IMG/VR virus record: IMGVR_UViG_3300050175_000033
Span: 1 to 41,916 of that record
Direction: 5' to 3' (one strand)
Source of the DNA: a virus
Length of the DNA stretch: 41,916 nucleotides
Shown here: piece after piece, positions 28,764 through 41,092 of the stretch
Layout: every line of letters starts with the position of its first letter
How positions within the stretch are numbered: the stretch's first letter is position 1
Position numbers and translations under genes: made by a program
The notes under the pieces: generated by a model
The model's database searches: none
Seen by the model: only the letters and a program-made list of their open reading frames with translations
Told to the model about the DNA's origin: nothing

Positions 28764-28767
28764 AAGG

Positions 28768-29025
28768 CTACTCCCGCCCCGTGTCCGTGGGAGGGGCAGC
28801 TTCGGGAGCCTGTGGGGCTTCAGGCGCGGGTGAGGCGGTATCTGTAAGTCTAAGTTCCCGTTTGGCCTGTGCCAGTTCGGATAAAGGGATACCATGGAAG
28901 CCGGCAAGCCAGTCCAGCAACACGCGCGCGGCGGCTTCCGCAGCTCGTTCCGCCCAGCCTGAACCACCCTCACCAACAGCGGCGCGAATTTCCAAAGCTG
29001 CCCGCTCTATCACGTCGTCACTCAC
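28768..29025 (-). CDS. Hypothetical protein, 85 aa, last gene of the leftward operon
   Basis: GTG at 29023-29025 with AGGAGAAGG just upstream; it overlaps the stop of the preceding gene. The N-terminus VSDDVIERAALEIRAAV is like that of the upstream gene's internal start (VTRDAIEQIARLL), suggesting paralogous beginnings. The C-terminus is Pro/Ala-rich (TDTASPAPEAPQAPEAAPPTD). No function is known. It ends 4 bases from the convergent rightward gene with no terminator in between. Confidence 0.6.
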   Translation of the reverse strand: MSDDVIERAALEIRAAVGEGGSGWAERAAEAAARVLLDWLAGFHGIPLSELAQAKRELRLTDTASPAPEAPQAPEAAPPTDTGRE

Positions 29026-29455
29026 TGGCCTTCTCCTGTGCGGGTGGGGCGGTATCTGTGAGGTCGAGGCCGAGGGAGCGGGCATACCAGATCGGATGAA
29101 TGCTCGCCATTTTCCCGCTGTGGTTGCGCTGGCTTTCGAACCATTGGCATTGATGCCCCAGCAGCACGCGCGCGAGGTCTTTGGCATCTTCTCGATACCG
29201 AAATGCCGAAGCATCCCAGTCTCGACAGTCGGCAGGGCTTTTACACTTCCCGCATGTGTCGCGCAGGTGCGTGTTCTGAAAGCAAAGCAGCCGTGCGATT
29301 TGCTCTATCGCGTCCCTAGTCACTGGCCTTCTCCTGGATTTTTCCTGCTGTGCCCTTTCGAGCGCCACCTGTTCCAGCAACCCCAATTCTTTACGCGCTA
29401 TCCGACGGGCTATTTTGCCGACTGGTTCGCTAATCGGTCTTTTGCGGTCAGTCAC
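29018..29455 (-). CDS. Hypothetical protein with two in-frame starts (145 or 101 aa)
   Basis: GTG 29455 gives 145 residues and GTG 29323 gives 101 residues, each preceded by the same sequence CAGGAGAAGGCCA. The shorter form starts VTRDAIEQIARLL. It contains CGKCKSPADCRDW (possible zinc site) and a helix ending LLGHQCQWFESQ. The extra 44 residues are basic and helical (GKIARRIARKELGLLEQVALERAQQEK). The layout looks like two genes that became fused in frame. Confidence 0.6.
   Translation of the reverse strand: MTDRKRPISEPVGKIARRIARKELGLLEQVALERAQQEKSRRRPVTRDAIEQIARLLCFQNTHLRDTCGKCKSPADCRDWDASAFRYREDAKDLARVLLGHQCQWFESQRNHSGKMASIHPIWYARSLGLDLTDTAPPAQEKASE
29022..29038 (-). repeat. Start-cassette repeat, copy 1 of 3 (others 29320-29336 and 29452-29468)
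   Basis: The 17-mer tcactggccttctcctg (plus strand) occurs exactly at 29022-29038, 29320-29336 and 29452-29468. On the minus strand it holds the ribosome-binding site AGGAG and the GTG start of three successive frames, so the same translation start has been copied. Confidence 0.9.
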
Positions 29456-29479
29456 TGGCCTTCTCCTGTGCGGCTCGGG

Positions 29480-29770
29480 TCATGGCTTGCCACGCTCCAT
29501 GTCTGGCGCAAGCAATCCTGGCTGTAACCAAATAGGCTCATCGTCTAGTTTCGCAACGTTGGCTGGCGGCGGCGGTAAATTTGCAAGAGCATCACCCGCA
29601 ATTGCGGTTAGAGCTTTGATGTGCTCGCGAAGCGGCTCCACCGGCACTATTGCGTAGCCGGCGCGGGAGAGGGCGGCCTTGATTGCCTCGGCGTCACCTT
29701 CATCGATCATATCGGTCGCGCCGAATTGCTCCCGTAGGCCGGCCAAGATTACATCAGTCGTTTCAGCCAT
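29480..29770 (-). CDS. Hypothetical protein, 96 aa
   Basis: ATG 29768-29770 with GGAG about 9 bases upstream; the start overlaps the stop of the thermonuclease-like gene. A helical N-terminus (TTDVILAGLREQFG) is followed by DEGDAEAIKAALSRAGYAIVP and LREHIKALTAIAGDALANL, a pattern seen in small phage proteins with a GY.IVP motif. The C-terminus is Pro-rich. Its function is unknown. Confidence 0.6.
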   Translation of the reverse strand: MAETTDVILAGLREQFGATDMIDEGDAEAIKAALSRAGYAIVPVEPLREHIKALTAIAGDALANLPPPPANVAKLDDEPIWLQPGLLAPDMERGKP

Positions 29771-30138
29771 CAGCACCAGCTCCTTCGCTTCCCGCCGTCA
29801 TAGGGCCTCGCCAGCCCATCCCGTATCATCACCACTCCCACGTCCTCGACCTTCCCTGTCTCCCGGTTGTAGGCAAAGAGCCGTGCCAGCGTGCGGCCGT
29901 ACTTACCCTTGCGGCCTGTGCGCTCCAGGCGCCCGCCCCAGAGCTTCCCGTCCTCTATCAGCTGCCCGAGCCTTTCGTGCGCCTGGCGGGCTAATTCGGC
30001 TTCCTGGGGGCACTTGGCGCGCGGGGCGTGCTCGGGCGTGTCGAAGCCGACGAGCCGGAAGGTTTCGCCGCATGTGTCGCGAGCCGTGTCGCCGTCCAGG
30101 GCGAAAAGGATGCAGGCTGTGGCGAGGGCGAGGTTCAT
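29770..30138 (-). CDS. Thermonuclease-like (SNase fold) protein
   Basis: A protein of 122 residues. The order ALDGDT, FRLVGFDTPE, C..EAELARQA, KYGRTLARLF, GLARPY is the staphylococcal-nuclease pattern, with the three catalytic residues at R28, E36 and R82. The first about 15 residues are hydrophobic (NLALATACILFALD) and may be a short signal sequence. Four Cys (9, 23, 43 and the last residue) could form disulphides if exported. It cuts DNA or RNA; in a phage it might degrade host or competing nucleic acid, which is inference. Confidence 0.85.
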   Translation of the reverse strand: MNLALATACILFALDGDTARDTCGETFRLVGFDTPEHAPRAKCPQEAELARQAHERLGQLIEDGKLWGGRLERTGRKGKYGRTLARLFAYNRETGKVEDVGVVMIRDGLARPYDGGKRRSWC

Positions 30139-30141
30139 GCC

Positions 30142-30333
30142 TCAGCCCTTTTCATCCCGATGGCGAGCGCCGCATAGCTCGCATGACCACAGCAAGCAAT
30201 CTTTGCCCGTGAACTCAGGCGCATTGACAAACCCGCACTCTTTGCAGATGCGCAGTTCAAAGACGTTAAATCGGCCTGTTGATGTATTTTGCTCATCAAG
30301 CGGGACCACATGGATTTTACGACGGGCGCTCAC
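30142..30333 (-). CDS. Zinc-ribbon protein, 63 aa
   Basis: GTG 30331-30333 overlaps the upstream stop (GTGA). Two C-x2-C pairs, CKECG and CELCG, about 17 residues apart form a classical four-Cys zinc ribbon. The N-terminus is basic (SARRKIHVVPLD). It is probably a nucleic-acid or protein binding accessory. Its target is unknown. Confidence 0.65.
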   Translation of the reverse strand: MSARRKIHVVPLDEQNTSTGRFNVFELRICKECGFVNAPEFTGKDCLLWSCELCGARHRDEKG

Positions 30334-30680
30334 GCCACCGTCTCCTTTTCCTGCTCTGCTATACGGGCCTTGAGGTAGGCGGCTAGAAGGACTAGAGCTT
30401 CCTCAGTATCCGCGCGTCCTGCAACCATCTCTTCAAACTCTGGAGGCAACCATATAGTCGCCCTGCAAATCGATGGGGTCGTTTCAATTTGTCGCGTATG
30501 TCCCGGCATCTCTCGCTCTATCAGAGCGGTGACGGCGTCGCGGGAAGCGGACCATGGCGGTACTGGAAAGGGCGGATCGTCATACAGCAGTTGGCCGACC
30601 TTCTGCTCAAGCGCAAAATTAGCCCCCGTCGCTTCCTCGACGAGTGCCAGGGCCTCTCTGAGGCGGGCGGTGGTGGTCAT
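30330..30680 (-). CDS. Hypothetical protein, 116 aa
   Basis: ATG 30678-30680 overlaps the stop of the next upstream gene (ATGA), with GAACAGAAGA before it. It has two helices at the N-terminus (ARLREALALVEEATG), a central segment with PPFPVPPWSASRDAVTALIEREMPG, and a helical C-terminus ending AAYLKARIAEQEKET. The pattern ..P.YS...DA...LIE..LPG is seen in phage proteins of unknown function that are linked to single genes in prophages. Confidence 0.6.
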   Translation of the reverse strand: MTTTARLREALALVEEATGANFALEQKVGQLLYDDPPFPVPPWSASRDAVTALIEREMPGHTRQIETTPSICRATIWLPPEFEEMVAGRADTEEALVLLAAYLKARIAEQEKETVA

Positions 30681-31222
30681 TCTTCTGTTCCGATCAGACG
30701 CGCAGTCGCATGATCCCAGTCTTCTTTCTGCTTGCCTTCGCTTTCCTCGACTAGGAAGCGGCGACGTTGATGGACAGCCTCGACGCTGTCCCATCGAGTC
30801 TTGAGCGTGCCAAGCGCTTCCCGCAGCCTATCCCGCTCCTCCTTGACCGCTTTCAGTTCGGCCGCAAGCCCCCGCAGCCGTTCGTCTCGGTTCTTGACGC
30901 CCTTATGGAGGTTGCGGTTGATGCGCTCCTCGGCCGCGCGCTGGGCTTCCAGCTCGGCGATGCGGACCTTTAGTGTATTGGCCAATTCTTCCCATTGGCG
31001 GACTTCTCCGCGCCACTGTGTATTCAGCTCTTTTGCCGCGTCTTGTTGGCGTTCTAGGGCGGCTCGTAGCGGCGCTTCTGCCGCCTCTCGTGTCTCGGCG
31101 ATGGTGCGGGCGATCTCATCTTCAAGATCGCGCGTATCGTCGGCTAAGAGAGGACTATAGGTGCGGGCTACTGCCTTAGCCTTCCGCCGGTCTTCCTCTG
31201 TCGGCGTCACTGTGGGGGTCAT
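30677..31222 (-). CDS. Coiled-coil protein, 181 aa
   Basis: It starts at ATG 31220-31222 (ATGA overlap with the gene upstream). Nearly the whole length (about 35-170) is predicted coiled coil: Arg/Glu/Lys/Leu-rich with heptads (LRAALERQQDAAKELNT, LANTLKVRIAELEAQRAAEE, LKAVKEERDRLREALGTLK). No domain is recognised. It may scaffold another product of the operon. Confidence 0.6.
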   Translation of the reverse strand: MTPTVTPTEEDRRKAKAVARTYSPLLADDTRDLEDEIARTIAETREAAEAPLRAALERQQDAAKELNTQWRGEVRQWEELANTLKVRIAELEAQRAAEERINRNLHKGVKNRDERLRGLAAELKAVKEERDRLREALGTLKTRWDSVEAVHQRRRFLVEESEGKQKEDWDHATARLIGTEE

Positions 31223-31626
31223 GGCTTGGGCTCCCAGTCCAGAACAACATCTTCTGCACACAAGGGCTGTGTCCAGCGCCATGAATTGTCATTTGTCACT
31301 ATCCGGGTATAGCCATTGCATTCCATATTGGACCGGAGAGTTTTTTCAGTCGGGTCGTTGCGAGCCTTCACGTCTGCAAGCGTTTCGACCTTGCCGCCAA
31401 GATAATATGTTCCGCTTCGGCCGCTTTCGTGGCTGTCAAAGTCTTGTTCGCCGCGTTCCCGTGTGGTAAAATAGAAGCCGTACGGAGTAGCGCCGTACCG
31501 CTCTTTGACATTATGGGCCATTTCCATAGCTAGATCAACGTCCCATGCGTCGATTTCTTCTGCGCTTTGCTCGGCCACAAACGTTCCGGGGCTGAGAAAA
31601 GTCACGAAATGTTTCTGCATTGTCAT
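31219..31626 (-). CDS. Conserved phage hypothetical protein (135 aa)
   Basis: It starts at ATG 31624-31626. FVTFLSPGTFVAEQSAEEIDAWDVDLAMEMA, YGATPYGFYFTTRERGEQDFDSHE and SGTYYLGGKVETLADVKARND form a compact alpha/beta pattern that recurs in phages and is annotated hypothetical. It has ATGA overlaps with both neighbours. Its function is unknown. Confidence 0.65.
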   Translation of the reverse strand: MTMQKHFVTFLSPGTFVAEQSAEEIDAWDVDLAMEMAHNVKERYGATPYGFYFTTRERGEQDFDSHESGRSGTYYLGGKVETLADVKARNDPTEKTLRSNMECNGYTRIVTNDNSWRWTQPLCAEDVVLDWEPKP

Positions 31627-31832
31627 GGCTCCCGCCTCTCCGCATCAAACACGCCGGCTTTCCTGCCGAAGTCAAAGGCCATGTCCCGCACGACAGAGAC
31701 AACGGACATCCCGATATCATAGGCGGCCTGTGGATCGCCATGCGTGTCGCCGAGTCGGAACATCCCCTGAGCGACCAAAGCCGCCCCATCCTCAACAAGT
31801 TTCCGGGCTTCCGCTGCTTCCTGTTCCGTCAT
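31623..31832 (-). CDS. Hypothetical protein, 69 aa
   Basis: Starts at ATG 31830-31832. It is helical and acidic (EQEAAEARKLVEDGAALVAQG, AAYDIGMSVVSVVRDMAFDFGRKAG). It ends ERREP-stop, the same tail encoded by the remnant upstream at 31829-31868. No family is recognised. Confidence 0.55.
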   Translation of the reverse strand: MTEQEAAEARKLVEDGAALVAQGMFRLGDTHGDPQAAYDIGMSVVSVVRDMAFDFGRKAGVFDAERREP

Positions 31833-31842
31833 GGCTCCCGTC

Positions 31843-32040
31843 TCTCCGCTGGTCCGTTCATAGGCTTTATTCTTCTCGCCACAGCTCTGACAGAAGCTGG
31901 TTCATTTTTTGCAGCTCTTTAAGGGTTGCACGCGCTAAAAGCCCGATCCACCCAAGAATGCTGCCAATAGAGATAAGAGCTAGAACTATGCTAGTGTTTG
32001 CTTCCATCATCGCCTCTCCGCTGGCCCGTTCATAGGCTTT
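31843..32040. repeat. 26-bp direct repeats bounding the tiny membrane gene
   Basis: 31843-31868 and 32015-32040 match at 25 of 26 positions. The right copy is the 3' end of the HNH gene (encoding KPMNGPAERR). The left copy is an untranslated remnant of the same end, read KPMNGPAERREP-stop, just upstream of the gene starting at 31832. Confidence 0.9.
31867..32010 (-). CDS. Tiny membrane protein, 47 aa, in a repeat-bounded insertion
   Basis: ATG 32008-32010 or ATG 32005-32007 (better spaced) follows GGAGAGG. One transmembrane helix at about residues 8-26 (IVLALISIGSILGWIGLLA) is followed by a cytoplasmic helix (TLKELQKMNQLLSELWREE). The gene is flanked by a 26-base direct repeat (31843-31868 and 32015-32040, 1 mismatch). 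It is short enough to be missed by length cut-offs. Its function is unknown. Confidence 0.6.
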   Translation of the reverse strand: MMEANTSIVLALISIGSILGWIGLLARATLKELQKMNQLLSELWREE

Positions 32041-32417
32041 TTCCATGCGCCGTCCCGGTTCGTCTGAAAGCCGCGGGACTGGATGCTCGAGCCGCCCTTC
32101 CGATCGCGCCGGGCCTTCTGGCCAGTCCGCCCCGCCTGGCGGTCTGCCTTGGCCATGCGGGCCTTGTCGGAGGCGGTCTTTGTCTTGTGGCAGTGGCCGT
32201 GGACGAAGCGGCAGTTTTCAGGGGTGTCGCGGCCCTCGCCGAAGCCGATCGCGTCGTCGTGGTCGCGCTCGATCTCGGGCAAGTCGACCGCCGTAATTGG
32301 GTCGTGGCAGACCGGACAAAGAATGGCGGCAAAGCTATGCTCGCCGATATCAAAGCGACACACCTGCCTCGCCACGATGCCAACGACTTCCCTTTCTGTG
32401 AACCGGCGCCTGCTCAT
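32007..32417 (-). CDS. HNH endonuclease-like protein
   Basis: A 136-residue protein from ATG 32415-32417. CPVCHDPI, then EIERDHDDAI and NCRFVHGHCHKTKT are the zinc-binding and beta-beta-alpha metal (HNH) elements. The last 40 residues are basic. HNH enzymes make single- or double-strand cuts and often help phage packaging or recombination. The stop lies at 32007-32009, overlapping the start of the tiny membrane gene. Confidence 0.8.
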   Translation of the reverse strand: MSRRRFTEREVVGIVARQVCRFDIGEHSFAAILCPVCHDPITAVDLPEIERDHDDAIGFGEGRDTPENCRFVHGHCHKTKTASDKARMAKADRQAGRTGQKARRDRKGGSSIQSRGFQTNRDGAWKKPMNGPAERR

Positions 32418-32457
32418 TCCGCCACATACTTCGCATAGAGGCGGGTCCAGCGGGCCA

Positions 32458-33045
32458 TCACAGGCGCCCCGCCCAAGCATCAAATTCGGTGTGCAGGGTC
32501 CGCCATCGCTTCGCCGCTTCCGGGTCCGTGTCGAATTCCTTGCGGGACTGGACTTGGCAGATTTCATGCACCGCATTCGCAGCAGCTTGGGAACCATCAC
32601 CATCCGCGTCGACAAGCGACCATTCGTCTCGGTGCTGCCTGTAGAGGAAATTCCAGAATTGAGGGTCGTTGCATCGTATCCCCGCCTGCCGCCGGTAGTG
32701 GTGCGGGTCGGGATTGGCTTGGTCTAGACTTGGGAAGTCGGCTAGAGTGCCATCCGTGTCCCATTTGCTCAGATCGTCGACCTCTGGGGCCTCCGGCGTC
32801 GCCTTGGCTTCCTCGCTCTGCACGACTGGGGTTTCGTCGTCGCCGATCGCACAGGCGCCCACCATGAAGCGCGTTCCCATCGGGGCTGTCAGAAGGCCGT
32901 AGGGCATGTCATCCGGCAGCACCTTGAGCGTGATGGTCCACTGGCCGCTCTGAAGCTGCTTCATGGCGTCCTTCTTCGCCTCGAACCGAAAGCTGTTCTC
33001 GACGGCAGCCGCGGCTATGTCGTCTATGGTGGCGGGGCGGGTCAT
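32458..33045 (-). CDS. Conserved partner gene of the Bet annealase, 195 aa
   Basis: It overlaps the bet stop by ATGA and is probably co-translated. The N-terminal half has WTITLKVLPDDMPYGLLTAPMGTRFMVGACAIGDDE, a beta-rich pattern common to phage proteins next to RecT/Bet genes. The C-terminal half has AGIRCNDPQFWNFLYRQH and DAAANAVHEICQVQSRKEF-like helices. No enzymatic motif is visible. A DNA-binding or recombination-accessory role is inferred from the neighbour. Confidence 0.65.
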   Translation of the reverse strand: MTRPATIDDIAAAAVENSFRFEAKKDAMKQLQSGQWTITLKVLPDDMPYGLLTAPMGTRFMVGACAIGDDETPVVQSEEAKATPEAPEVDDLSKWDTDGTLADFPSLDQANPDPHHYRRQAGIRCNDPQFWNFLYRQHRDEWSLVDADGDGSQAAANAVHEICQVQSRKEFDTDPEAAKRWRTLHTEFDAWAGRL

Positions 33046-33929
33046 TCGGCGGCCTCAAGCTGCTTGTAAGCGGTCTCGAACTTTTTCTTGATTTCCAGCG
33101 CATCGGTCGCATTGCGTGCCCAAAACTCCCGAAAGGACTCGCGGTTGCGATCCTCGAAAGCCTTCAGCGTCATGGGCTCCTCGACATTCTCTTGAATGAA
33201 GGCGGCGATGCGGTCGCCGGCCTGGCCGAGCGGAACGCGCGCCAAAGGCTGTCCATCCATCCAGTCGATCATGATGGCGTCGGCGCCGCCGATCTTGGCG
33301 AGCCGATCTTCTTGCATGCCCGCGGCGGCGGCCTCAGAAGGCGAGAGATCGAGCACCTGCCCGCGGTCGAGCTCCGCGCCCTCGTAGATCATGCCGAAGT
33401 CATCGGGCCATGCTCGGCGCAGTGCACCCGCCTCGGCGCACTTGGCGATCATGACGCGGGGCATCTTGACCCAGCCCGTCTTTTTGCGGTCGATACGCGC
33501 GACGCCCTGCGCATCCGTGAACAGCGGCACGTATTCGTCCCAGAATGCCTGCCCGGCAGCCGGCCACCATTCGCCCTGCGCGTGCTTGTAAACTGTCACC
33601 GTGCAGGACACGATGCCGAGCGGGTTCGTGTCGGGGTTTTTCACCGCTTCGTCGTATTCGTAGACCGGTGGCTTATCGTCGGGGCGATAGGCCCCCGTCC
33701 GCGAGGCGATGGCCCGCAACCCATCGATCGCCACCACGGGCGTCAACTGTCGTTTCTGGGCGTCGCCCTTATAGAATACGAAAGCGTAAATCTGCCGGCG
33801 TAGGGGATCGAGCCCCACAGTCCGGCAGATATGCAGGAACATATCGAACTCGGCATCGTTGCAGTCCTTGGCGACCGTCTGCCGGATCAGCGCCATTTCC
33901 TGATTGGAGAAGTGGATCAGTCCGTTCAT
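33042..33929 (-). CDS. bet: Bet/RecT-family single-strand annealing protein
   Basis: A protein of 295 residues, similar in length to lambda Bet (261) and related annealases. The Bet pattern is clear: DAEFDMFLHICRTVGLDPLRRQIYAFVFYKGD, then TPVVAIDGLRAIASRTGAY and MPRVMIAKCAEAGALRRAWPDDFGMIYEGAEL. It anneals complementary single strands and invades recessed ends at replication forks. No 5'-3' exonuclease partner (Exo or RecE) is visible nearby; the host may supply it. Confidence 0.92.
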   Translation of the reverse strand: MNGLIHFSNQEMALIRQTVAKDCNDAEFDMFLHICRTVGLDPLRRQIYAFVFYKGDAQKRQLTPVVAIDGLRAIASRTGAYRPDDKPPVYEYDEAVKNPDTNPLGIVSCTVTVYKHAQGEWWPAAGQAFWDEYVPLFTDAQGVARIDRKKTGWVKMPRVMIAKCAEAGALRRAWPDDFGMIYEGAELDRGQVLDLSPSEAAAAGMQEDRLAKIGGADAIMIDWMDGQPLARVPLGQAGDRIAAFIQENVEEPMTLKAFEDRNRESFREFWARNATDALEIKKKFETAYKQLEAAE

Positions 33930-33932
33930 GGT

Positions 33933-34451
33933 CTAGCTCCAGCTAAAGGCGACGGTCACGCCGCCGTTGTCGAGTTCGGCGCCGGGGATCGCCCCGCCGT
34001 CTTTCAGTGCTGCCGCCAGCGCCTTGCGGTCGAGCTTCGGCGGCGGTGTTACGAAGTAGGCGGATGGGACGGCCGCCTCGTCCTTCAGGATCAGGGCGCG
34101 CGGCTTGCTGCGCTGCGACACGGTGCCGAACGGCAGTTCGAGCGACTTCAGTTCGCCCATCTCCATCGCCACCGAAACCGCCGTCCTGACATTGCGGACG
34201 CGGGCCTCATACCGCCGCTTGCGGTCTTCCAGCCGAGCGGCTATCATCTTGATGCGGGCAAGGTGCCCCTCGGTTTCCAGCACTAAGGCTGCGGCGCCTG
34301 CGATGGCCTCATGAAGGTCAGTTCCCCCCTCGATGCTGTCGCGGATCAGGGCTTCGTCCTCGTCACCATCCGCCAATACATCGGCAAGATGGGCGCGCAG
34401 AGTCCTGGCGGCGGCCGTGGCCCTGTGCAATTCGTGGCGCGCGTCGCTCAC
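33933..34451 (-). CDS. Gp157-like siphovirus protein
   Basis: GTG 34449-34451, preceded by GGAAGGGAA, overlaps the previous stop (GTGA). The first 100 residues are helical. LEDRKRRYEARVRNVRTAVSVAMEMGELKSLELPFGTVSQRSKP is the mark of the Gp157 family, which lies next to annealase genes in many phages. Its function is not firmly known. The C-terminal portion (KLDRKALAAALKDGGAIPGAELDNGGVTV) also fits. It ends 4 bases before bet. Confidence 0.85.
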   Translation of the reverse strand: MSDARHELHRATAAARTLRAHLADVLADGDEDEALIRDSIEGGTDLHEAIAGAAALVLETEGHLARIKMIAARLEDRKRRYEARVRNVRTAVSVAMEMGELKSLELPFGTVSQRSKPRALILKDEAAVPSAYFVTPPPKLDRKALAAALKDGGAIPGAELDNGGVTVAFSWS

Positions 34452-34810
34452 TTCCCTTCCTCCGTATCCTGTACAAGAGAGAGAGCGGCGATACACATGT
34501 CACGGGCTCGCCAAGCGGCTGTCCTGTCTTCAGATCCGCGCGGGAAATTGCAGCCAAACACATGTAACTTATCTTCGGCTTCTCTCAGCGCCTCGACCAG
34601 TGCTGGGACGACTTCGGCTTGGTTCAGTGCTGCGGCCAAGGCTTCCGCTGCGCTCATGTCGTCAGACCCCGCCGCCCAATCGCTGGTTGTGCAGACGGGG
34701 AAGCCCATCGTGACTGAGCGAGAGCCGTCGTCATTGCGTGTCTCGACCGAATTTCGGTAGACCGTGTCGGCTTCGGCGCGGTATGGCGGCGTATGCTTCT
34801 GCTCAGCCAT
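34448..34810 (-). CDS. Hypothetical protein, 120 aa
   Basis: ATG 34808-34810 within ATGGCTGA, overlapping the upstream stop by 8 bases. Beta-like start (YRAEADTVYRNS, RSVTMGFPVCT), then helices with ALAAALNQAEVVPALVEALREAEDKL. This A..LN.A..VPALVEAL pattern is a frequent phage small-protein theme. Its function is unknown. Confidence 0.6.
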   Translation of the reverse strand: MAEQKHTPPYRAEADTVYRNSVETRNDDGSRSVTMGFPVCTTSDWAAGSDDMSAAEALAAALNQAEVVPALVEALREAEDKLHVFGCNFPRGSEDRTAAWRARDMCIAALSLVQDTEEGK

Positions 34811-35081
34811 CAGAGCGGGCCTCCTCGGAACTCATGAGTGCGATGTCCAGAAGCCGCCATGCGCTGCGCTCGCCTTCCGCGATGCCCGGATCGTCCCAGT
34901 TGTCGGGGCGTGCGTCGGCGTTAAGGGCCTCCAGCGCGGCGCGCATGAGCGGCGCGCATCGAATTAAACGAGCCACCCGCTGATCATGCCGCGCCACCGT
35001 GCAAATTGTCCGCTTCAAGTCTTTGATGGTGAGCGTTGTATACGTTCGCTCAATCCGCCAAGTGTCGTATTTGTCAGCCAT
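34803..35081 (-). CDS. Hypothetical protein, 92 aa, between duplicated junctions
   Basis: ATG 35079-35081 in a copied start (ATGGCTGA) and the same C-terminal EEARSDG as the upstream gene. The body has WRIERTYTTLTIKDLKRTICTVARHDQRVARLIRCAPLMRAALEALNADARPDNW. Phage proteins with A.LM..LEAL are common; function unknown. It is flanked by identical 25-base repeats. Confidence 0.6.
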   Translation of the reverse strand: MADKYDTWRIERTYTTLTIKDLKRTICTVARHDQRVARLIRCAPLMRAALEALNADARPDNWDDPGIAEGERSAWRLLDIALMSSEEARSDG

Positions 35082-35098
35082 CAGAGCGGGCCTCCTCG
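34803..35098. repeat. 25-bp direct repeats flanking the 92-aa gene
   Basis: tcagccatcagagcgggcctcctcg-type 25-mers occur at 34803-34827 and 35074-35098 without mismatch. Each carries the 3' end of one gene (EARSDG-stop) and the ATG of the next on the minus strand, so the whole junction was duplicated. Confidence 0.9.
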
Positions 35099-35388
35099 AT
35101 CGCCACCTTGAGCGCTTCCATGAAATCCTGCATGCCGGCGAGCATGAGCGCCCATTCGTGCATGAGGTCTTCGGAGGCTCCACGGCTGGTCAGGTCGGAC
35201 GTGAGCTGCGTCTCGTGAGCCCAGACGACCTTCTCGTAGCGTTCTGCGAATTCCTCGAGATACGTCGCCGTATCGAAGCAGGTATGGGACGGCGCCAGCA
35301 TGGCTGTAAGGGCCTCGTTGATGGTCGAGCGCGGCTTGAACGCGTTCGGCTGATGCGCGGGCATGGCGGTGATGGGCTGGTCAGTCAT
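35074..35388 (-). CDS. Hypothetical protein, 104 aa
   Basis: Starts at ATG 35386-35388. Opening MTDQPITAMPAHQPNAF, then helices (INEALTAMLAPSH, YLEEFAERYEKVVWAHE, LMHEWALMLAGMQDFMEALKVAIEE). No family is recognised. Its start sequence MTDQP also survives as a remnant on the far side of the neighbouring AT-rich gene. Confidence 0.6.
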   Translation of the reverse strand: MTDQPITAMPAHQPNAFKPRSTINEALTAMLAPSHTCFDTATYLEEFAERYEKVVWAHETQLTSDLTSRGASEDLMHEWALMLAGMQDFMEALKVAIEEARSDG

Positions 35389-35753
35389 TGTTTAAATTTC
35401 CTCATAGTAGTCAGCAGCGTTGTAATGTTCACAAATGTACGCTATGATTGCCTCATATACCTCATCCGGCAAACCGTTCGATGGAAACTCAACATGGTCA
35501 TCATCCCATGTTTTCTTTTCTGCATTCCACTTCTTGCAAGGCCAGAAGATGGTCTCAATCTCAATTTCCATCGGCTCAGCGGGATGACCGGGATAGTTCA
35601 GGCTTCCCATATGTGCGTGGCAGCCGCCGTCGGTGATTTTGAAGTCTATCGATAGGATAACTTCGCCGCCGGCTTCCTTGCCCAGCCCGAGTTCAATTCC
35701 GACATCCATGCTTGGCATCAGTCTTTCTCCATGCGGGGCTGGTCAGTCATTGT
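35374..35753. repeat. 18-bp direct repeats bounding the AT-rich gene
   Basis: gggctggtcagtcattgt occurs at 35374-35391 and 35736-35753. On the minus strand both encode the start MTDQP. The right copy reads MTDQPRMEKD-stop, an orphan start that is no longer part of a gene. Confidence 0.9.
35392..35718 (-). CDS. AT-rich small protein, 108 aa, likely recent insertion
   Basis: ATG 35716-35718 begins MPSMDVGIELGLGKEAGG; the protein has FKITDGGCHAHMGSLNY and IETIFWPCKKWNAEKKTWDDDHVEFPSNGLPDE segments and an acidic C-terminus. The gene is visibly less GC-rich than its neighbours (about 42% in 35401-35460 by my count), and an 18-base repeat lies on each side, both pointing to recent acquisition. Its function is unknown. 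Confidence 0.6.
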   Translation of the reverse strand: MPSMDVGIELGLGKEAGGEVILSIDFKITDGGCHAHMGSLNYPGHPAEPMEIEIETIFWPCKKWNAEKKTWDDDHVEFPSNGLPDEVYEAIIAYICEHYNAADYYEEI

Positions 35754-36060
35754 CTGTTCCCTCTGCTTGGCGGATGGCGGCGTCAATCATGTCCCAGACT
35801 TCTTGGGACGGCATGCGCTTGGTATTTCCGCTGTTCCATCGCGTCGCCGCCTTCAGCGCCTCCAGCATTGCTGGTGCTGCTGCTATGAGGCGGGCGATAT
35901 CAGCGGCCTGCAACGGGGTAGCTCCGACGCCGGGCCTGCCTGTCTGGACATGCGCCGTGAACCAGTTCTCGTCTGTCCCGTACTCGTTCTTGACCAGCGA
36001 ATAGATGGTTCGCTCGTCGCGCTGCCAAGTTGCTGGCCCCGCTATCCCATGTCCGCTCAT
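35743..36060 (-). CDS. Hypothetical protein, 105 aa, first gene of the leftward operon
   Basis: ATG 36058-36060 has GGAGAGGAC upstream. The protein has YSLVKNEYGTDENWFTAHVQ, then DIARLIAAAPAMLEALKAATRWNS, the AAP.MLEALK pattern frequent in phage small proteins. It is the first cistron after the structured leader, so it should be made earliest and most strongly. Confidence 0.65.
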   Translation of the reverse strand: MSGHGIAGPATWQRDERTIYSLVKNEYGTDENWFTAHVQTGRPGVGATPLQAADIARLIAAAPAMLEALKAATRWNSGNTKRMPSQEVWDMIDAAIRQAEGTDND

Positions 36061-36079
36061 GTCCTCTCCCCCGCTAGGA

Positions 36080-36174
36080 AGGCCCGGCCGGCTTGGGTGG
36101 CTGAGAGGGCATTTCGCCGGCCGGGCCTGTGAAGCGCAATTTTGGCATTCCCGGTTCCGCCGGGCCGGTTGCGC
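36080..36174 (-). promoter_or_regulatory. Structured leader of the leftward operon
   Basis: 13 perfectly paired GC-only bases, AGGCCCGGCCGGC (36080-36092) and GCCGGCCGGGCCT (36116-36128), enclose a 23-base loop. A second nested structure has outer arms GCGCAA (36134-36139) and TTGCGC (36169-36174) around CCCGG-TTCCG-CCGGG (36150-36164). Both lie between the leftward promoter and the first gene. No U-tract follows, so attenuation, an antitermination site or mRNA stabilisation are open possibilities. Confidence 0.55.
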
Positions 36175-36197
36175 GGTGATCCGCGCTGACGAAAAGC

Positions 36198-36227
36198 ATG
36201 GTATGCGAAAATCGCAACTAGTGTCAA
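36198..36227 (-). promoter_or_regulatory. Leftward early promoter (PL-like) with operator in the spacer
   Basis: On the minus strand TTGACA (36222-36227) is a perfect -35. After an 18-base spacer comes TACCAT (36198-36203), 4 of 6 matching TATAAT. The spacer contains the perfect operator TGCGA-AAA-TCGCA (36204-36216). Transcription would start near 36190, about 130 bases before the first gene. Confidence 0.7.
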
Positions 36228-36277
36228 GCGAAAACCGCACACCGGCAGAAATGCATAGCTGTTATGCGAAAATCAGG
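36204..36277. promoter_or_regulatory. Left repressor operators (three 13-mers)
   Basis: TGCGAAAATCGCA (36204-36216, perfectly symmetrical), AGCGAAAACCGCA (36227-36239) and TGCGAAAATCAGG (36265-36277) share the pattern TGCGA-AAA-TCGCA with 0, 2 and 3 mismatches. The first two start 23 bases apart, the last two 38. This resembles the clustered CI/Cro operators of lambdoid phages. Confidence 0.65.
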
Positions 36278-36291
36278 CTGTGGGAAAAGGG

Positions 36292-36954
36292 CTATTTATC
36301 GACGTATCGGCCGACGACAAGGCCCACGATCTCGACCACTTCGGCGATGTCCGTGGACTGATAGACGAGCGGGTCTTCAGGTGGGAGGGTATACGAATCA
36401 GACCACAGCTCAATCCGGCCGTTAACAAGTCTGACGCGCTTGCAGCTGACTTCGACAAGGTCGCCGCGCCGTCTTTCCACTATGACGCGGTCCTCGTCGG
36501 CAATTTGCTGGCGGACATCCCAATAGGCGACGCACACCAAGTACATGCCGTCTAGGGCGTAACGATTGGCCGAGTCGCCCTCGACTTTGTAGGCGAACCG
36601 CTCAACATCCCGATGTCGCTGGGTCGGTGGCACAAATATTTCTGCAATACCGGACTCGGGCATTGTCCCGCCGCCTTCACGCCACACCCCACTTTGCACC
36701 ACCCCTACAACTTTAACACTAAGAACGGGCGTTCTGCTACCATAAATCATCAGCTCGCTCGGGAGAGGTTTCCCCACGTAGGCCACGATGGTCGGCAGCT
36801 CGCGGGCTTTGATGGAGCGTTTGCCGGATAACATCTTAGAAACGGCGCTCTGGTCTATTCCAAGGGCCTTGGCGAGCCCGGCGCCCGTGCGCTTCCGCAC
36901 GTCCAGGCTGTCTGCAAGCCACTTCCTAAGCCTCTCGTCTATCGCATTGCGCAT
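36292..36954 (-). CDS. CI-like repressor (HTH plus S24 peptidase domain)
   Basis: A protein of 220 residues. The N-terminal helix-turn-helix spans about 22-60 (TGAGLAKALGIDQSAVSKMLSGKRSIKA). The C-terminal S24 (LexA/CI-like) domain has the nucleophile in EGDSANR (S128) and the general-base Lys in CKRVRL (K172), so RecA-stimulated self-cleavage is likely. The normal Ala-Gly cleavage site is replaced by VVQSGVW (Ser88-Gly89). ATG 36952-36954 lies 7 bases from a CATAAT -10 (36962-36967, minus strand), so the transcript may be leaderless, as for lambda cI from PRM. Confidence 0.88.
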   Translation of the reverse strand: MRNAIDERLRKWLADSLDVRKRTGAGLAKALGIDQSAVSKMLSGKRSIKARELPTIVAYVGKPLPSELMIYGSRTPVLSVKVVGVVQSGVWREGGGTMPESGIAEIFVPPTQRHRDVERFAYKVEGDSANRYALDGMYLVCVAYWDVRQQIADEDRVIVERRRGDLVEVSCKRVRLVNGRIELWSDSYTLPPEDPLVYQSTDIAEVVEIVGLVVGRYVDK

Positions 36955-37043
36955 GCATGAAATTATGACGCCTGCCGGAAAATCGCATATCGCCCTTTTC
37001 GCAAATCTGTTGACGGCTGCTTGCGATTATGGCATACAAGGGT
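36955..37043. promoter_or_regulatory. Divergent control region between repressor and Cro (PR / PRM)
   Basis: Rightward: TTGACG (37010-37015) is followed, 17 bases on, by a weak -10 CATACA (37033-37038). The operator-like TGCGA-TTA-TGGCA (37022-37034) lies in the spacer, mirroring the PL layout. A degenerate operator CCGGAAAATCGCA (36975-36987) and half-site TCGCA (36999-37003) also occur. Leftward: CATAAT (36962-36967) with no good -35, as expected of a PRM-type promoter needing activation. Confidence 0.6.
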
Positions 37044-37283
37044 ATGCGATACGAACCAGCGACCAGCATCATCAAGGATCTGGGCGGGGCCAAAGAGGTC
37101 GCGAGGATTGCCGGCGTCCACTACACGCGCGTCTATCGCTGGCAGCTTTCCAAGGACAAGCAGGGCACCGACGGTCTGATTCCTCAGAGGCATCACCGCG
37201 TTCTCATGCAGGCCGCGAAAGACCGCGGCGTCGCCCTGACGGCCGAGCGGCTGATGGGGCTCGAGCAAGGGGAGCCCGTCTGA
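37044..37283 (+). CDS. Cro-like HTH protein
   Basis: A 79-residue protein starting at ATG 37044 (MRYEPATSIIKDLGG); ATG 37029 would add 5 residues but would lie upstream of the expected transcription start. The fold is a single helix-turn-helix: IIKDLGGAKEVARIAGVHYTRVYRW, then basic residues and LMQAAKDRGVALTAERLM. It is divergently encoded from the CI gene and probably competes for the same operators. The promoter position predicts a leaderless mRNA; no usable ribosome-binding site is present. Confidence 0.8.
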   Translation: MRYEPATSIIKDLGGAKEVARIAGVHYTRVYRWQLSKDKQGTDGLIPQRHHRVLMQAAKDRGVALTAERLMGLEQGEPV

Positions 37284-37591
37284 TGGCCATGGACGCGGAG
37301 GAAAGAGCGCGGGAGATCGCAGAGCGTGCATATCCGAAGCAGTTCTATCCCGACATCAACAAGGAAGTGCAGGCCGAGATCGCCGCCGCCATCCGCTCCG
37401 CAGAGGCCGAAGCCGAGAGGCGCGGCATGGAAATCGGGCAACGAGCGGCCCGCGCTTTGGTGAATGAAGAGAAATTCAGACATACGCAGGGCACAGAAAT
37501 TCGCGAGCGCCTATTTCGTTTGACGCTGGCTTTAGCCGCGCAAACAGCAGCGGATATGCGAGCACGCGGAAAGGAACCAGCAGACGCATAG
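37283..37591 (+). CDS. Hypothetical protein, 102 aa
   Basis: ATG 37283 overlaps the Cro-like stop (TGATG). It is helical and charged throughout: AEERAREIAERAYPKQFYPDINKEVQAEIAAAIRSAEAEAERRG, then LFRLTLALAAQTAADMRARG. The pattern resembles small phage proteins with an A.e.A......I..al..AEAEA...G theme. No known function. Confidence 0.6.
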   Translation: MAMDAEERAREIAERAYPKQFYPDINKEVQAEIAAAIRSAEAEAERRGMEIGQRAARALVNEEKFRHTQGTEIRERLFRLTLALAAQTAADMRARGKEPADA

Positions 37592-37608
37592 CACCACTCA
37601 AATCAGGT

Positions 37609-37678
37609 GCGCCCGGCTCCAGGAAGCTGGACTAATCGGAGCCGGGCGCGGGAGCTTCCCAGACAGAGGACCGGGAAG
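37609..37678 (+). ncRNA. Two-hairpin structured RNA candidate
   Basis: GCGCCCGGCTCC (37609-37620) pairs perfectly over 12 bp with GGAGCCGGGCGC (37638-37649) around a 17-base loop. CTTCCC (37655-37660) pairs with GGGAAG (37673-37678) around 12 bases. They lie in a 250-base gap (37592-37840) of an otherwise packed operon. No U-tract follows. They could be a leader or antitermination RNA, or a small regulatory RNA. Confidence 0.5.
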
Positions 37679-37698
37679 TCTAGCGGGGTAACGAACTA

Positions 37699-37854
37699 AT
37701 GAATGCAGGCGACTACATCGGTTCTGGCAGGAACTTAGCCGCCTTCAGTATGCGAATTCCTTCCGTTGCTTTGTTCGATTATGAACATAGCACGGAGGCG
37801 AATGACAGTGCGCAACAATCCTTTGCGAACGGAGCAAACCATGACCGCGGCTGA
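37699..37854 (+). CDS. Possible small ORF, 51 aa
   Basis: ATG 37699 with a distant GGGG (37685-37688) opens MNAGDYIGSGRNLAAF and ends at TGA 37852-37854 inside the next gene. There is no recognisable domain. TGTTC-GATTAT-GAACA (37772-37787) is a 16-base inverted repeat within it. Evidence for translation is weak. Confidence 0.3.
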   Translation: MNAGDYIGSGRNLAAFSMRIPSVALFDYEHSTEANDSAQQSFANGANHDRG

Positions 37855-38191
37855 CTATGTCGACCGGGCGCGGGGCTGGGCTCGCACGCTTGAAGAGGAG
37901 CAGGCCAAGGGCAGTACGCTAGAGCGCGCCCGCCACGATCTGGAAGCCAAGTACGGCATCCCGGCAAACATCTTTTGGTCACTCAGGCACCGGCCGCCCA
38001 AGACGATTGCGGCGCATCTCTATCACGGGCTGATGGCAGCCTACCAACGCGAACTCGAGCGACAGCGGCGGCGCTATGGCGAAGAACTCGAAGAAACCCG
38101 CAGGATTCAAGCCGGGACTGATAGCAAGCTTGTGCGGGCGGCTGTTGCTGTGGCCGGCGAGGCTGTGGGCGCGGATGAGGCGACGGAATGA
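37841..38191 (+). CDS. Hypothetical protein, 116 aa (TAADY family-like)
   Basis: I chose ATG 37841 (MTAADYVDRARGW); upstream ATGs at 37781 and 37802 have GGAGG before 37802 and cannot be excluded. KYGIPANIFWSLRHRPPKTIAAHLYHGLMAAYQRELERQRRRY is an HTH-like region with a charged helix, like a prophage protein type frequent in Rhizobiales. Function unknown; DNA binding is likely. It overlaps the next gene by ATGA. Confidence 0.6.
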   Translation: MTAADYVDRARGWARTLEEEQAKGSTLERARHDLEAKYGIPANIFWSLRHRPPKTIAAHLYHGLMAAYQRELERQRRRYGEELEETRRIQAGTDSKLVRAAVAVAGEAVGADEATE

Positions 38192-38550
38192 TTGAATACG
38201 CAGTTATGGCCGAAATGAAATCCGGGGGTGTTCACACACTTCGGCGCGGGTTTCCGTCCAAGGAAGCGGCGGAAGACTATCCGGTCGTTGCTGCTCATTG
38301 GAAACGGGTTTGGGTTGAGCCAATCAAGAGCTGTGCGGAACCCCTGAGAACAGCTCCGCCGTTGCCTTGGGAGGTCAGGTGGCACCCGACCGGCAATGGT
38401 GGGGCGTTCACGTATCTGCATGATGCAGATGGCCACCGCATCGCGTCGTTGTGGGGGGCGTATGAACGCCGAGAACACATTGAGAAAATTCTTCAAGATG
38501 CGGGGCTTATTGCTCTTGCTGGACCGGCTTCGGATGAAGGCGAGGCGTAG
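38188..38550 (+). CDS. Hypothetical protein, 120 aa
   Basis: Starts in the ATGA overlap. The N-terminus is beta-like (EYAVMAEMKSGGVHTLRRGFPSKEAAEDY), the middle PLPWEVRWHPTGNGGAFTYLHDADGHRIASLWG, and the C-terminus helical (REHIEKILQDAGLIAL). This matches the general plan of small phage proteins combining two beta sheets with a helix. Function unknown. Confidence 0.6.
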   Translation: MIEYAVMAEMKSGGVHTLRRGFPSKEAAEDYPVVAAHWKRVWVEPIKSCAEPLRTAPPLPWEVRWHPTGNGGAFTYLHDADGHRIASLWGAYERREHIEKILQDAGLIALAGPASDEGEA

Positions 38551-38880
38551 GTGATGGGCGACAAGCCAGACATGACAGACGACTGGATGGACCCGCAGCC
38601 GCGTACGTTCAGCTTTTCAGAGCCGAAAATTGAGAACAAGACGGAATATCTAATTGAGCGGGCGCGACGAATTCCAGTGACCGGCAATGTGTCGTCGCTC
38701 GTGCAGTGGGCCACATGGTCTGTTCATGAGACGAAAAGGGAGCGTGATGCCGAATTGAAACGGCTCAGCAAGGCGCACCCGAAATGGCATCTGCGCGCCC
38801 GCGACCGCAACCGCTGGCTTGAGCGCCACGGAATCTTCCCGCCCGTCAGTCATCCGGGGATCAACAAGCCATCCACATGA
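38551..38880 (+). CDS. Hypothetical protein, 109 aa
   Basis: Starts with GTG 38551 or ATG 38554 immediately after the previous stop. PRTFSFSEPKIENKTEYLIERARRIPVTG, then a charged helix VHETKRERDAELKRLSKAHPKWHLRARDRNRWLERHG. No family is recognised. It is adjacent to the excisionase block. Confidence 0.55.
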   Translation: MMGDKPDMTDDWMDPQPRTFSFSEPKIENKTEYLIERARRIPVTGNVSSLVQWATWSVHETKRERDAELKRLSKAHPKWHLRARDRNRWLERHGIFPPVSHPGINKPST

Positions 38881-38933
38881 CCCGCCTCCTGACCATATCC
38901 CAGATACGCGACCGCTTCCCGGAGCAGGGCTGA
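38877..38933 (+). CDS. 18-codon minigene, excisionase N-terminus remnant
   Basis: ATG 38877 (ATGA overlap with the previous gene) to TGA 38931-38933 encodes MTRLLTISQIRDRFPEQG. It matches the start of the downstream excisionase (FTIAQIRAKYPEPR). Both stop and start couple (TGATG) with the next gene. It is either a truncated paralogue or a leader peptide for xis translation. Confidence 0.5.
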   Translation: MTRLLTISQIRDRFPEQG

Positions 38934-39328
38934 TGGACGAGGAGATTTTCACCATCGCCCAGATCCGCGCGAAATATCCCGAGCCGCGCCCGGCTGAGCG
39001 CTGGTTGACGGACGAGCTGAAGCGCCTTGGCTGTTGCTTTGCATCCGGCCCCCGGTGGTACGTTACCGCTGAACAGTGGGAACGTTTCAAGCGGGAGAAA
39101 ACGGCATGTCCTTCACACTCAGAAAGCGGGGCGACGTCTGGTACGCGAGGCTCTACATCCCGTACCAAAAAGCGGACGGCTCAATTGCCTGGGGACGAAT
39201 TGAAAGAAGCACTCACACTGGTAACCGAAAGCGAGCCAAGCAAACGGCGGACAAGTTCGAAAGCGAGTACTGGGACCACGCCTATAATAAGCCTCAGCGA
39301 GGCCAAACGTTTGCAGGGGCGGCCATAA
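38933..39328 (+). CDS. Excisionase-like protein with long overlap into the integrase gene
   Basis: ATG 38933 starts MDEEIFTIAQIRAKYPEPRPAERWLTDELKRLGCCFASGPRWYVTAEQWERF, an excisionase-type winged helix of about 57 residues with a final WYVT wing. The frame continues a further 223 bases (39106-39328) over the integrase start, out of frame, giving 131 residues. Most Xis proteins are 60-80 residues, so the tail (Ser/Thr/Lys-rich) is probably an unusual extension. Confidence 0.7.
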   Translation: MDEEIFTIAQIRAKYPEPRPAERWLTDELKRLGCCFASGPRWYVTAEQWERFKREKTACPSHSESGATSGTRGSTSRTKKRTAQLPGDELKEALTLVTESEPSKRRTSSKASTGTTPIISLSEAKRLQGRP

Positions 39329-40116
39329 CGTACATGGAAACGACCGGAAATAAGCGATACATCAAGCCGCTGTTGCAGCACTTCGGCACGAAGGCGCTTA
39401 GCGAGATCGATCAGGCGGCGATGGCGCGGGCCTGTCATGTGCTCTATCCGAACTGCGCGCCCTCGACGCACAACCGGCAAGTCTACACTCCGGTCCTGCG
39501 CATCATGAAGCTGGCCAAGCACAAGCACGATATCGAGAGGCCCAAAGGCCACGACGCGGCCACGCCGCTCGAGATACCGCCCGAGGACTGGTTCGATGCC
39601 GTGCTCCCGCACTGCGAGCCCGAGCTGGCCGCGCTGCTGGTGTTCCTGACGCTGACCGGCAGGAGAGTCAGCGAGGCCCTGGCCCTGCACCCTGACGACA
39701 TCGACCTTGCCCAGCGCCGGGCCATCCTGCACACGACCAAATCCGGCAAGCCCGCGGTCGTCAAGATACCGGGCCCGGCGATGGCAAGCATCCTCGCCAT
39801 CCCGAACTGGCGGGGGCGCGACCGGCTGTTCCGCTATGCCCACCGCTCCAACTGGTATCCGGCCCTCAGAGAGGCGTGCAGGACCGCGGGCGTCCGGTAC
39901 TACCCGTTTCATGCCTTGGGCCGTCACGCCGCCGCCACGCGCCTTCTGCGGGCCGGCTACAGCCTCGCCCATGTTCAGAAGGCCCTCGGATGGGCAAGTA
40001 TCCAGATGCCAGCACGGCGGTATAGCCATCTGGAACAGAGCGAAGTGGACGAGGCTGTTGATGCTGTCGGGAGGACGTGGGGCCAGGGGCGGCAACGGAT
40101 CAGGAGGGCGGGATGA
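39106..40116 (+). CDS. int: Tyrosine-recombinase integrase
   Basis: A protein of 336 residues from ATG 39106. N-terminal arm-binding domain with YARLYIPYQKADGSIAWGR, core-binding SAM-like middle. Catalytic residues: R in TGRRVSEAL (about 188), K in TTKSGK (about 210), HALGRH (about 270, an H-x3-R-H variant), W in ALGW (about 293) and the Tyr nucleophile in RRYSH (about 304). It integrates the phage at the tRNA-Thr site found about 1 kb downstream. An in-frame start 30 bases upstream is possible. Confidence 0.9.
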   Translation: MSFTLRKRGDVWYARLYIPYQKADGSIAWGRIERSTHTGNRKRAKQTADKFESEYWDHAYNKPQRGQTFAGAAITYMETTGNKRYIKPLLQHFGTKALSEIDQAAMARACHVLYPNCAPSTHNRQVYTPVLRIMKLAKHKHDIERPKGHDAATPLEIPPEDWFDAVLPHCEPELAALLVFLTLTGRRVSEALALHPDDIDLAQRRAILHTTKSGKPAVVKIPGPAMASILAIPNWRGRDRLFRYAHRSNWYPALREACRTAGVRYYPFHALGRHAAATRLLRAGYSLAHVQKALGWASIQMPARRYSHLEQSEVDEAVDAVGRTWGQGRQRIRRAG

Positions 40117-40569
40117 AGATTCGTTTCGCGCGCCGCTATATGGAACGGCTTGATAGGGGCTTTCTGCGAAGCATTGCCCGAACCAGCCCGGATCAGCGTT
40201 TTGCGTCGCATATTCAGGCCGCCATCCCACGCCTACAGCGACGCGGCTGGCTAAAAATCGTCAGGCACTCTGACGGCGACTACGTGCTGCTTACGGACCG
40301 GGGATGGCAGGAGCGGATTAGGAGCGCGGGATGAGCGAGGCAGCGGGAAAACGTCCTGTTCCCAGCATGAGCCGGTTGCACAGCCCCAGAAGTGAGGTCG
40401 TGGCCGGCAAGCAACAGTGCAAACCCATGGGCGTGACAGTCGGGAGAAAGCCGGCGATCAATTGGCGGGAAGACGGGCGAGCGTACGCAGCTCTCCGGGG
40501 ACAAAGGCTAACACAATCTCCCGGCCCGCTGATTGATGCTGTCGGGCGGGCATGGGGCCAGGGGCGGCA
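40058..40569. repeat. 37-bp direct repeat: integrase 3' end copied downstream
   Basis: 40058-40094 (integrase 3' end) and 40533-40569 (3' end of the gene at 40331) match at 34 of 37 positions and encode DAVGRTWGQGRQ and DAVGRAWGQGRQ. Bases next to both end in AGCGGGATGA-like junctions, so the unit 40095-40569 looks inserted between int and the gene at 40585. Confidence 0.85.
40113..40334 (+). CDS. Winged-helix-like hypothetical protein, 73 aa
   Basis: ATG 40113 overlaps the integrase stop (ATGA). RFASHIQAAIPRLQRRGWLKIVRHSDGDYVLLTDRGWQERI has the look of a winged helix (helix, then wing with GDYVLLTDRG). A DNA-binding role is plausible. Its C-terminus (RIRSAG) echoes the integrase end (RIRRAG). 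Confidence 0.6.
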   Translation: MKIRFARRYMERLDRGFLRSIARTSPDQRFASHIQAAIPRLQRRGWLKIVRHSDGDYVLLTDRGWQERIRSAG

Positions 40570-40588
40570 GGTGAGGAAAGCGGGATGA
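40331..40588 (+). CDS. Hypothetical protein with integrase-derived C-terminus, 85 aa
   Basis: Starts in the ATGA overlap. The first 60 residues are basic and low in hydrophobicity (AGKRPVPSMSRLHSPRSEVVAG). The last 18 (IDAVGRAWGQGRQVRKAG) are a copy of the integrase C-terminal end. It looks like a gene built on duplicated int sequence. Function unknown. Confidence 0.5.
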   Translation: MSEAAGKRPVPSMSRLHSPRSEVVAGKQQCKPMGVTVGRKPAINWREDGRAYAALRGQRLTQSPGPLIDAVGRAWGQGRQVRKAG

Positions 40589-41088
40589 GCCAAACAGCAG
40601 AATTAATCACCGATGAATGGTTGGCCGAAGTCGGCTTCAAATGGCACCAATTTGATCGCCAGCCGACGAAGCATTGGCTCCTTTGGCTTGGTGACGCGCA
40701 AGCGGACCGAACGGTCTGTTACTGCGATATCGGTCTTGAGGTATCCCGAATGTCATCTCGAGACGAAGAATGGTTCTGCTGGTTCCGGTCTGATGCGGCG
40801 GGGCGATACCATCGGTTCATTCATGTGCGTCACATCAAGACGCAGGCTGACATTATCAGTTTGGTCGAAGCGATCACAGGGCAGTCTTGGCAACCGGAAA
40901 ACCACATTGCCGGTACGGCCCGGACATCTGAGAACGCAGCGTCATTGCGTGCCCAGCTCGAACGGCTCGACGTGAAAATGATGCGTGAGGGCCATCCCTG
41001 GCACGACGTCGAACGGGATGACACGCTCGGCGGCGCGCTACCCGAGCATGTGCAGGTGTACGAAGAAAACAGGGACGCCAAAGAGTGA
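40585..41088 (+). CDS. Conserved hypothetical protein, 167 aa
   Basis: ATG 40585 overlaps the previous stop. ITDEWLAEVGFKWHQFDRQPTKHWLLWLGD, then WFCWFRSDAAGRYHRFIHVRHIKTQADIISLVEAITGQSW is an alpha/beta pattern I have seen in phage small proteins of unknown function. The C-terminus is charged. It ends just before attP. Confidence 0.6.
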   Translation: MSQTAELITDEWLAEVGFKWHQFDRQPTKHWLLWLGDAQADRTVCYCDIGLEVSRMSSRDEEWFCWFRSDAAGRYHRFIHVRHIKTQADIISLVEAITGQSWQPENHIAGTARTSENAASLRAQLERLDVKMMREGHPWHDVERDDTLGGALPEHVQVYEENRDAKE

Positions 41089-41092
41089 TTTC

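Follow-up and report, generated by a model that had tools for sequence, protein, structure and literature searches.

The window analysed here is the whole 41,916-bp virus record IMGVR_UViG_3300050175_000033 (all coordinates refer to this window, position 1 being its first letter), and its early region, from a temperate phage, contains small genes, single or in pairs, located between direct repeats of gene junctions. The window encodes Sipho_Gp157, HNH, SNase and S24 repressor proteins, a tyrosine integrase and a RecT-family single-strand annealing protein (33042..33929; PF03837, E=2.4e-26), referred to as Bet in a preliminary description of this DNA. The early genes are organized in a leftward operon extending from 36.1 to 28.8 kb, for which all features given below are on the minus strand, and a rightward operon extending from 37.0 to 41.1 kb.

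Within positions 28701-41100, we identified six pairs of exact direct repeats, each 16 bp or longer and with the two copies within 1.5 kb; 60 Markov shuffles yielded none (0.0 expected, maximum 0), and no such repeat is present in positions 1-28700. Of the nine exact repeats that are 14 bp or longer, seven have each copy at a gene boundary (25 bp tolerance), compared to 0.3 expected by random placing. The five repeats listed in the preliminary description were all recovered, at the positions given there, by the repeat search, and the two orphan gene pieces that it had pointed out, MTDQPRMEKD-stop and KPMNGPAERREP-stop, are both present in the sequence. The 17-, 25- and 18-mers are each confined to their own place in the window, even with up to three mismatches allowed; the family at 31.6-32.0 kb was searched by its 15-mer junction core only, with other matches near the chance level, and the 37-mer family fell under the repeat search of the whole window. 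Both the repeat sequences and the bracketed pieces differ from place to place. Weaker extra copies bring the junction to three occurrences around two genes or pieces at three of the places.

In the leftward operon, an 18-bp repeat (18/18 identical) is found at 35736..35753, where it forms the orphan start MTDQPRMEKD-stop, and at 35374..35391, where it forms the intact start of gene 35388-35074 (MTDQPITAMP). The two copies bracket a gene for a 108-aa protein (35392..35718; 48% GC), for which no family was found. A 25-bp junction repeat, identical in 25/25 positions, has its upstream copy at 35074..35098 and its downstream copy at 34803..34827, with EEARSDG-stop overlapping ATGGCTGA, and brackets a gene for a 92-aa protein (34803..35081) that is not significantly similar to the gene on either side. 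Farther downstream, a junction repeat (28/30 identical) is located at the end of the HNH gene (32011..32040; KKPMNGPAERR-stop) and again at 31839..31868, as the orphan tail KPMNGPAERREP-stop preceding gene 31832-31623. The small gene between these copies, MMEANTSIVLALISIG... (31867..32010), has a GC content of 45%, and its product, as read by eye, probably contains one membrane helix. A further copy of the tail and junction (AERREP-stop ATGAC; 22 nt, 95% identical to 31828-31849) is found at 31622..31643.

The most complex arrangement is at 29.0-29.5 kb, where 17 bp are exact in all three copies of the junction, and 22 bp are exact between the copies at 29022 and 29452. Copy 1 (29452..29473) contains the orphan tail MTRAAQEKASD-stop and a GTG start; copy 2 (29320..29336) carries a Shine-Dalgarno sequence and a GTG start that is read through in frame (SRRRPVTRD); and copy 3 (29022..29038; CAGGAGAAGGCCAGTGA) combines the tail AQEKASE-stop with the start of gene 29025-28768. 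Copies 2 and 3 bracket the gene VTRDAIEQ...AQEKASE (29018..29323), which has a 44-codon in-frame extension (29324-29455; open reading frame 29018-29455). The piece between 29320 and 29452 lacks a stop and continues in frame into the gene after it; it therefore represents an extension or a fused remnant rather than a closed gene, which corrects the preliminary description at this point. A segment of 23 nt encoding the LTDTASPA tail (28826..28848) is repeated from 29040-29062 with 91% identity. Apart from the junctions, a 14-bp exact repeat, CCGCATGTGTCGCG, lies within two coding regions (29250-29263 and 30068-30081) and encodes an RDTCG motif in both gene 29018 and the SNase gene.

In the rightward operon, a 37-bp repeat (34/37 identical) is located in the C-terminal tail of the integrase gene, 22-58 nt before its stop (40058..40094, plus strand; DAVGRTWGQGRQ), and in the tail of gene 40331-40588 (40533..40569, plus strand; DAVGRAWGQGRQ). 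The bracketed piece is the gene pair 40113-40334/40331-40588 (40113..40588, plus strand), which adjoins the integrase gene; the last 21 nt of the latter recur at the end of gene 40113 (18 or 19 of 21 identical by eye). This pair sits between the integrase gene and a sequence resembling the 3' half of a tRNA, GGCCGGGAGTTCGAATCTCCCCGGCGGCACCA (about 41157-41208, plus strand), about 1.1 kb past the integrase gene. ARAGORN did not detect a whole tRNA at this site, which is likely the attP core.

The window contains extra genes with an end or a start that repeats that of a neighbour at the DNA level, and the duplication takes two forms. In the tail type, either the bracketed piece itself ends in the tail of the upstream gene (int/40331 and 35074/34803) or an orphan copy of the tail follows the bracketed gene (HNH, the 31867 gene, then KPMNGPAERREP-stop). 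In the head type, what precedes the bracketed gene is a short orphan start of the downstream gene (MTDQPRMEKD-stop ahead of gene 35392, which is followed by MTDQPITAMP). When one repeat copy was deleted in silico together with the bracketed gene or genes, both neighbours remained intact and joined by a normal coupled junction at four of the five places, namely, MTDQPITAMP, EEARSDG-stop/MAEQKH, KKPMNGPAERREP-stop/MTEQ and int...RKAG-stop/MSQTAE. The preliminary proposal that excision leaves the operon intact holds on paper for these four places, the exception being 29.0-29.5 kb. Its further suggestion that every repeat brings along the signals for translation applies to the 17-, 25- and 26-mers and not fully to the other two: the 18-mer has a start codon but no Shine-Dalgarno sequence, and the 37-mer falls within the tail of the integrase gene. 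The bracketed genes do not look like copies of the genes next to them, even though the repeat copies are up to 25/25 identical. Scans of bracketed genes other than the 31867 membrane gene, against PHROGs for those searched there (the only database in which 29018 was scanned) and against Pfam for those submitted, revealed no useful function. We also considered a foreign base composition as a mark of the bracketed genes: two of these are AT-rich (45% and 48% GC compared to about 60%), but the group does not differ significantly from the rest (p = 0.18), and this candidate was rejected.

Taken together, these features make it probable that the repeats are scars of separate events of gain or loss of single genes or gene pairs by recombination at gene junctions. 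The early operon in which these events would have occurred is tightly packed. At overlapping genes (ATGA, ATGGCTGA), the ribosome-binding site of a gene lies in the end of the one upstream of it, so that clean entry of a new gene breaks one of the neighbours. By contrast, events that duplicate the junction would keep the upstream stop as well as the downstream start and ribosome-binding site intact, and because both neighbours are kept only by such insertions, selection for working operons would retain those. Once present, the two junction copies could recombine and remove the gene precisely. We infer that insertion and duplication happened together, and likewise which way each event went and what was responsible, which might be RecT, RecA or template switching; the presence of a RecT-family gene is suggestive of a possible link to the junction events. 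On this reading, the window is an exceptionally dense instance of a process already known, and what sets it apart is the number of repeats in a single phage.

Close relatives carrying the early region of the window were not detected by megablast in phages, by distant blastn or among records sharing the terminase, which is at most 45% identical to the terminases of annotated phages and 62% identical to those of the closest viral contigs. Searches of viral contigs with the RecT, integrase, 35074 and HNH proteins, of genomes with RecT, and of viral contigs with the exact 25-mer core similarly yielded no relative with this early region. The comparison set consisted of RecT-encoding rhizobial prophages (loci L002-L089), all found through RecT, most with 39-46% RecT identity, and many being near relatives of each other; no homologues of the bracketed genes are present in these loci. 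We identified 29 distinct gene-size insertions or deletions (indels) between pairs of loci, with the boundaries read from the sequences, the gene caller being too crude for classifying them, and with the direct repeat at each indel measured as the overlap of the flanking alignments. An overlap of at least 12 bp was found in 28% of the indels. The corresponding share is 4% if insertions fall at random (p = 0.0002), and inserting unrelated genes at coupled junctions in a simulation gave 11% (p = 0.035), whereas the overall distribution of overlaps did not differ from that of the simulated coupled-junction insertions (p = 0.36). Long repeats are a minority outcome of gene gain and loss in these relatives. 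Long stretches shared between coupled junctions are about 9 times likelier for neighbouring (13/2899) than for distant (6/12631) junctions; the corresponding p = 3e-6 is optimistic because some loci are near-copies (e.g., L006 and L066) and the pairs are not fully independent.

The preliminary description had made its case depend on empty-site alleles existing somewhere, and such alleles were found at comparable sites in this related prophage family. In L006/L066, a two-gene piece lies between the tails AKGGAA and SKGGAA and is absent from L003/L048, the match across the join spanning 228 bp without a gap. At a junction repeat, L049 and L078 likewise differ as filled and empty alleles (247 bp gap-free, 88.7%), as do L021/L062/L064 and L029 at a 14-bp repeat. 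In L023, L013 and L042, there are repeats of 16-25 bp, most of which are junction repeats of the same design as those of the window. One of these RecT-encoding prophages, L042, contains a start junction of 19-25 bp, CGGGGGCGACCATGGCTGA, in three copies about 1 kb apart (13260, 14136 and 15289), a second candidate for junction-mediated gain or loss. Nevertheless, 74 of the 88 RecT-encoding relatives lack repeats of at least 16 bp, and the repeat density of the window is unmatched by any relative except two tandem-array loci and one duplicated-tRNA locus. In an Ensifer contig (L004, 18708-19160), a tRNA-like unit is duplicated, with an 89-bp repeat and a third, partial copy.

Several arrangements described in other phages resemble that of the window. 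In mycobacteriophage Island3, the last 18 residues (60 bp) of gp68, a protein of 85 residues, repeat those of gp67, whereas gene 66 of Brujita corresponds to one recombinant copy with no extra gene, and either gain or loss is possible there (Pope et al., 2011; PMC3029335). We recomputed the Island3 67/68 repeat, which is identical in 54 of 60 positions, and found that the phage encodes a RecT-like protein, gp49. The anatomy is the same as that of int/40331 and 35074/34803; however, Island3/Brujita represents one event with the empty allele in hand, whereas the window has no fewer than five such places within 12 kb, and no close relative was found that would give direct proof. In LRRHood, genes 43-46 are located between 29-bp direct repeats, a single copy of which is found in Cali (PMC3029335). 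As in the window, extra genes lie between direct repeats at gene ends; in LRRHood, these are four genes spanning 1.35 kb, which were read there as one acquisition. According to the mosaicism model, as cited in the same paper, short homology at boundaries lets single genes exchange; in that rendering, the boundary sequence is common to different phages, whereas in the window, it is duplicated within one genome. The Start-Associated Sequences of cluster K mycobacteriophages are short repeats with a ribosome-binding site and a start codon in the non-structural half of the genome (PMC3203893); there, one motif precedes many genes, in contrast to the own sequence of each place in the window. Finally, the PeSL promoter-terminator cassettes of T4-type phages are, as summarized in PMC4503421, intergenic repeats thought to mediate gene shuffling (Arbiol et al., 2010); by that account, they form one family of promoter plus stem-loop elements, unlike the window repeats, which are mostly coding ends and starts.

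Several observations weigh against attributing the repeats to gene gain or loss. None of the relatives has the bracketed genes of the window or their empty sites, so that the five places are not directly proven, and most indels in the relatives show no repeat beyond the length that coupled junctions produce by themselves. The virtual collapse at 29.0-29.5 kb leaves an 11-codon orphan, MTRAAQEKASE, instead of a tidy two-gene junction. Genes 29018 and 28768 show distant paralogy over the LTDTA tail, with the heads possibly also alike. Genes 34803-35081 and 35743-36063, separated by two genes, are distant paralogues as well, the only clear pair found in the comparison of bracketed genes (these small phage proteins without assigned function share ARLI..AP.M..LEAL..A). 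The paralogues, along with the serial three-copy junctions at three places, would fit a scenario in which a gene and its junction were duplicated in tandem, the gene body then diverged rapidly, and the junction, being needed for translation, was retained. We nevertheless consider this scenario quite improbable, given that the genes flanked by the 25/25 and 18/18 repeats are not significantly similar to the genes next to them and that filled and empty alleles in the relatives differ by whole genes between similar tails. For the exact repeats, a tandem copy of the direct neighbour was rejected by gene comparison; 29018 and 28768, with the LTDTA tail in common, may be an exception.

It appears quite unlikely that an active cassette system is at work, in which the RecT-family annealase repeatedly swaps single genes using the junction repeats as insertion platforms. 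The phage does encode such an annealase, as do the comparison prophages, all found through RecT, and the Island3 precedent; furthermore, the window is richer in repeats than its relatives, the tandem-array and tRNA-duplication loci aside. However, the scarcity of long repeats among RecT-encoding relatives argues against such a system, as does the lack of a common platform, the repeat sequence being different at every place. Gain or loss of single genes through repeats, as proposed in the preliminary description, draws support from the removability on paper, the empty alleles in relatives and the Island3/Brujita precedent; the preponderance of indels without a long repeat, by contrast, speaks against a general cassette system. 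Overall, that interpretation is partly supported, that is, supported for the phage family and unproven for the phage of the window.

A functional role of the repeats, either as a regulatory or translation-start motif or as conserved protein tails, might be suspected because most copies hold a Shine-Dalgarno sequence, a stop or a start, and the Start-Associated Sequences precede many genes of non-structural regions. It is very improbable, as each family comprises two or three copies at one place, with nothing common between places, and some copies are orphan fragments encoding nothing useful. The restriction of each family to a single place is inconsistent with a common regulatory motif, and a genome-wide start motif such as the Start-Associated Sequences was excluded by the strictly local occurrence of the searched repeat families. 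A small mobile element with constant ends, of the MPME or insertion sequence type, was likewise rejected, since the pieces and repeats differ between places. The chance that the repeats are fortuitous or an assembly artefact is practically negligible: shuffling yields none, the copies have distinct flanks and some have differences of their own, and several independent families occur in one region, even though the overlapping record ends, with 7 mismatches in 134 bp, indicate that the assembly is not flawless.

Gain and loss of single small genes in phages is a long-standing question, for which boundary repeats have seldom been documented. The ideas at stake are blunt illegitimate exchange, short boundary homology and annealase-driven swapping, and the marks in the window, at least five in 12 kb, together with the filled/empty pairs of rhizobial prophages, make these testable on named loci. 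Extending gene gain or loss at junctions beyond the window, phages with overlapping early operons might gain genes preferentially by junction duplication, with the annealase making the units quickly reversible, and part of the turnover of early regions would then proceed in this way and not by blunt illegitimate exchange. At present, we regard this generalization as unlikely.

The ends of the record (1-134 and 41783-41916) overlap, with 103 identical bases, a cluster of 7 mismatches at 104-121 (FIPVNGVRNEQC versus FIPVDGTQNEQC) and another 13 identical bases. The genome is probably circular or terminally redundant and was probably assembled from two variants.

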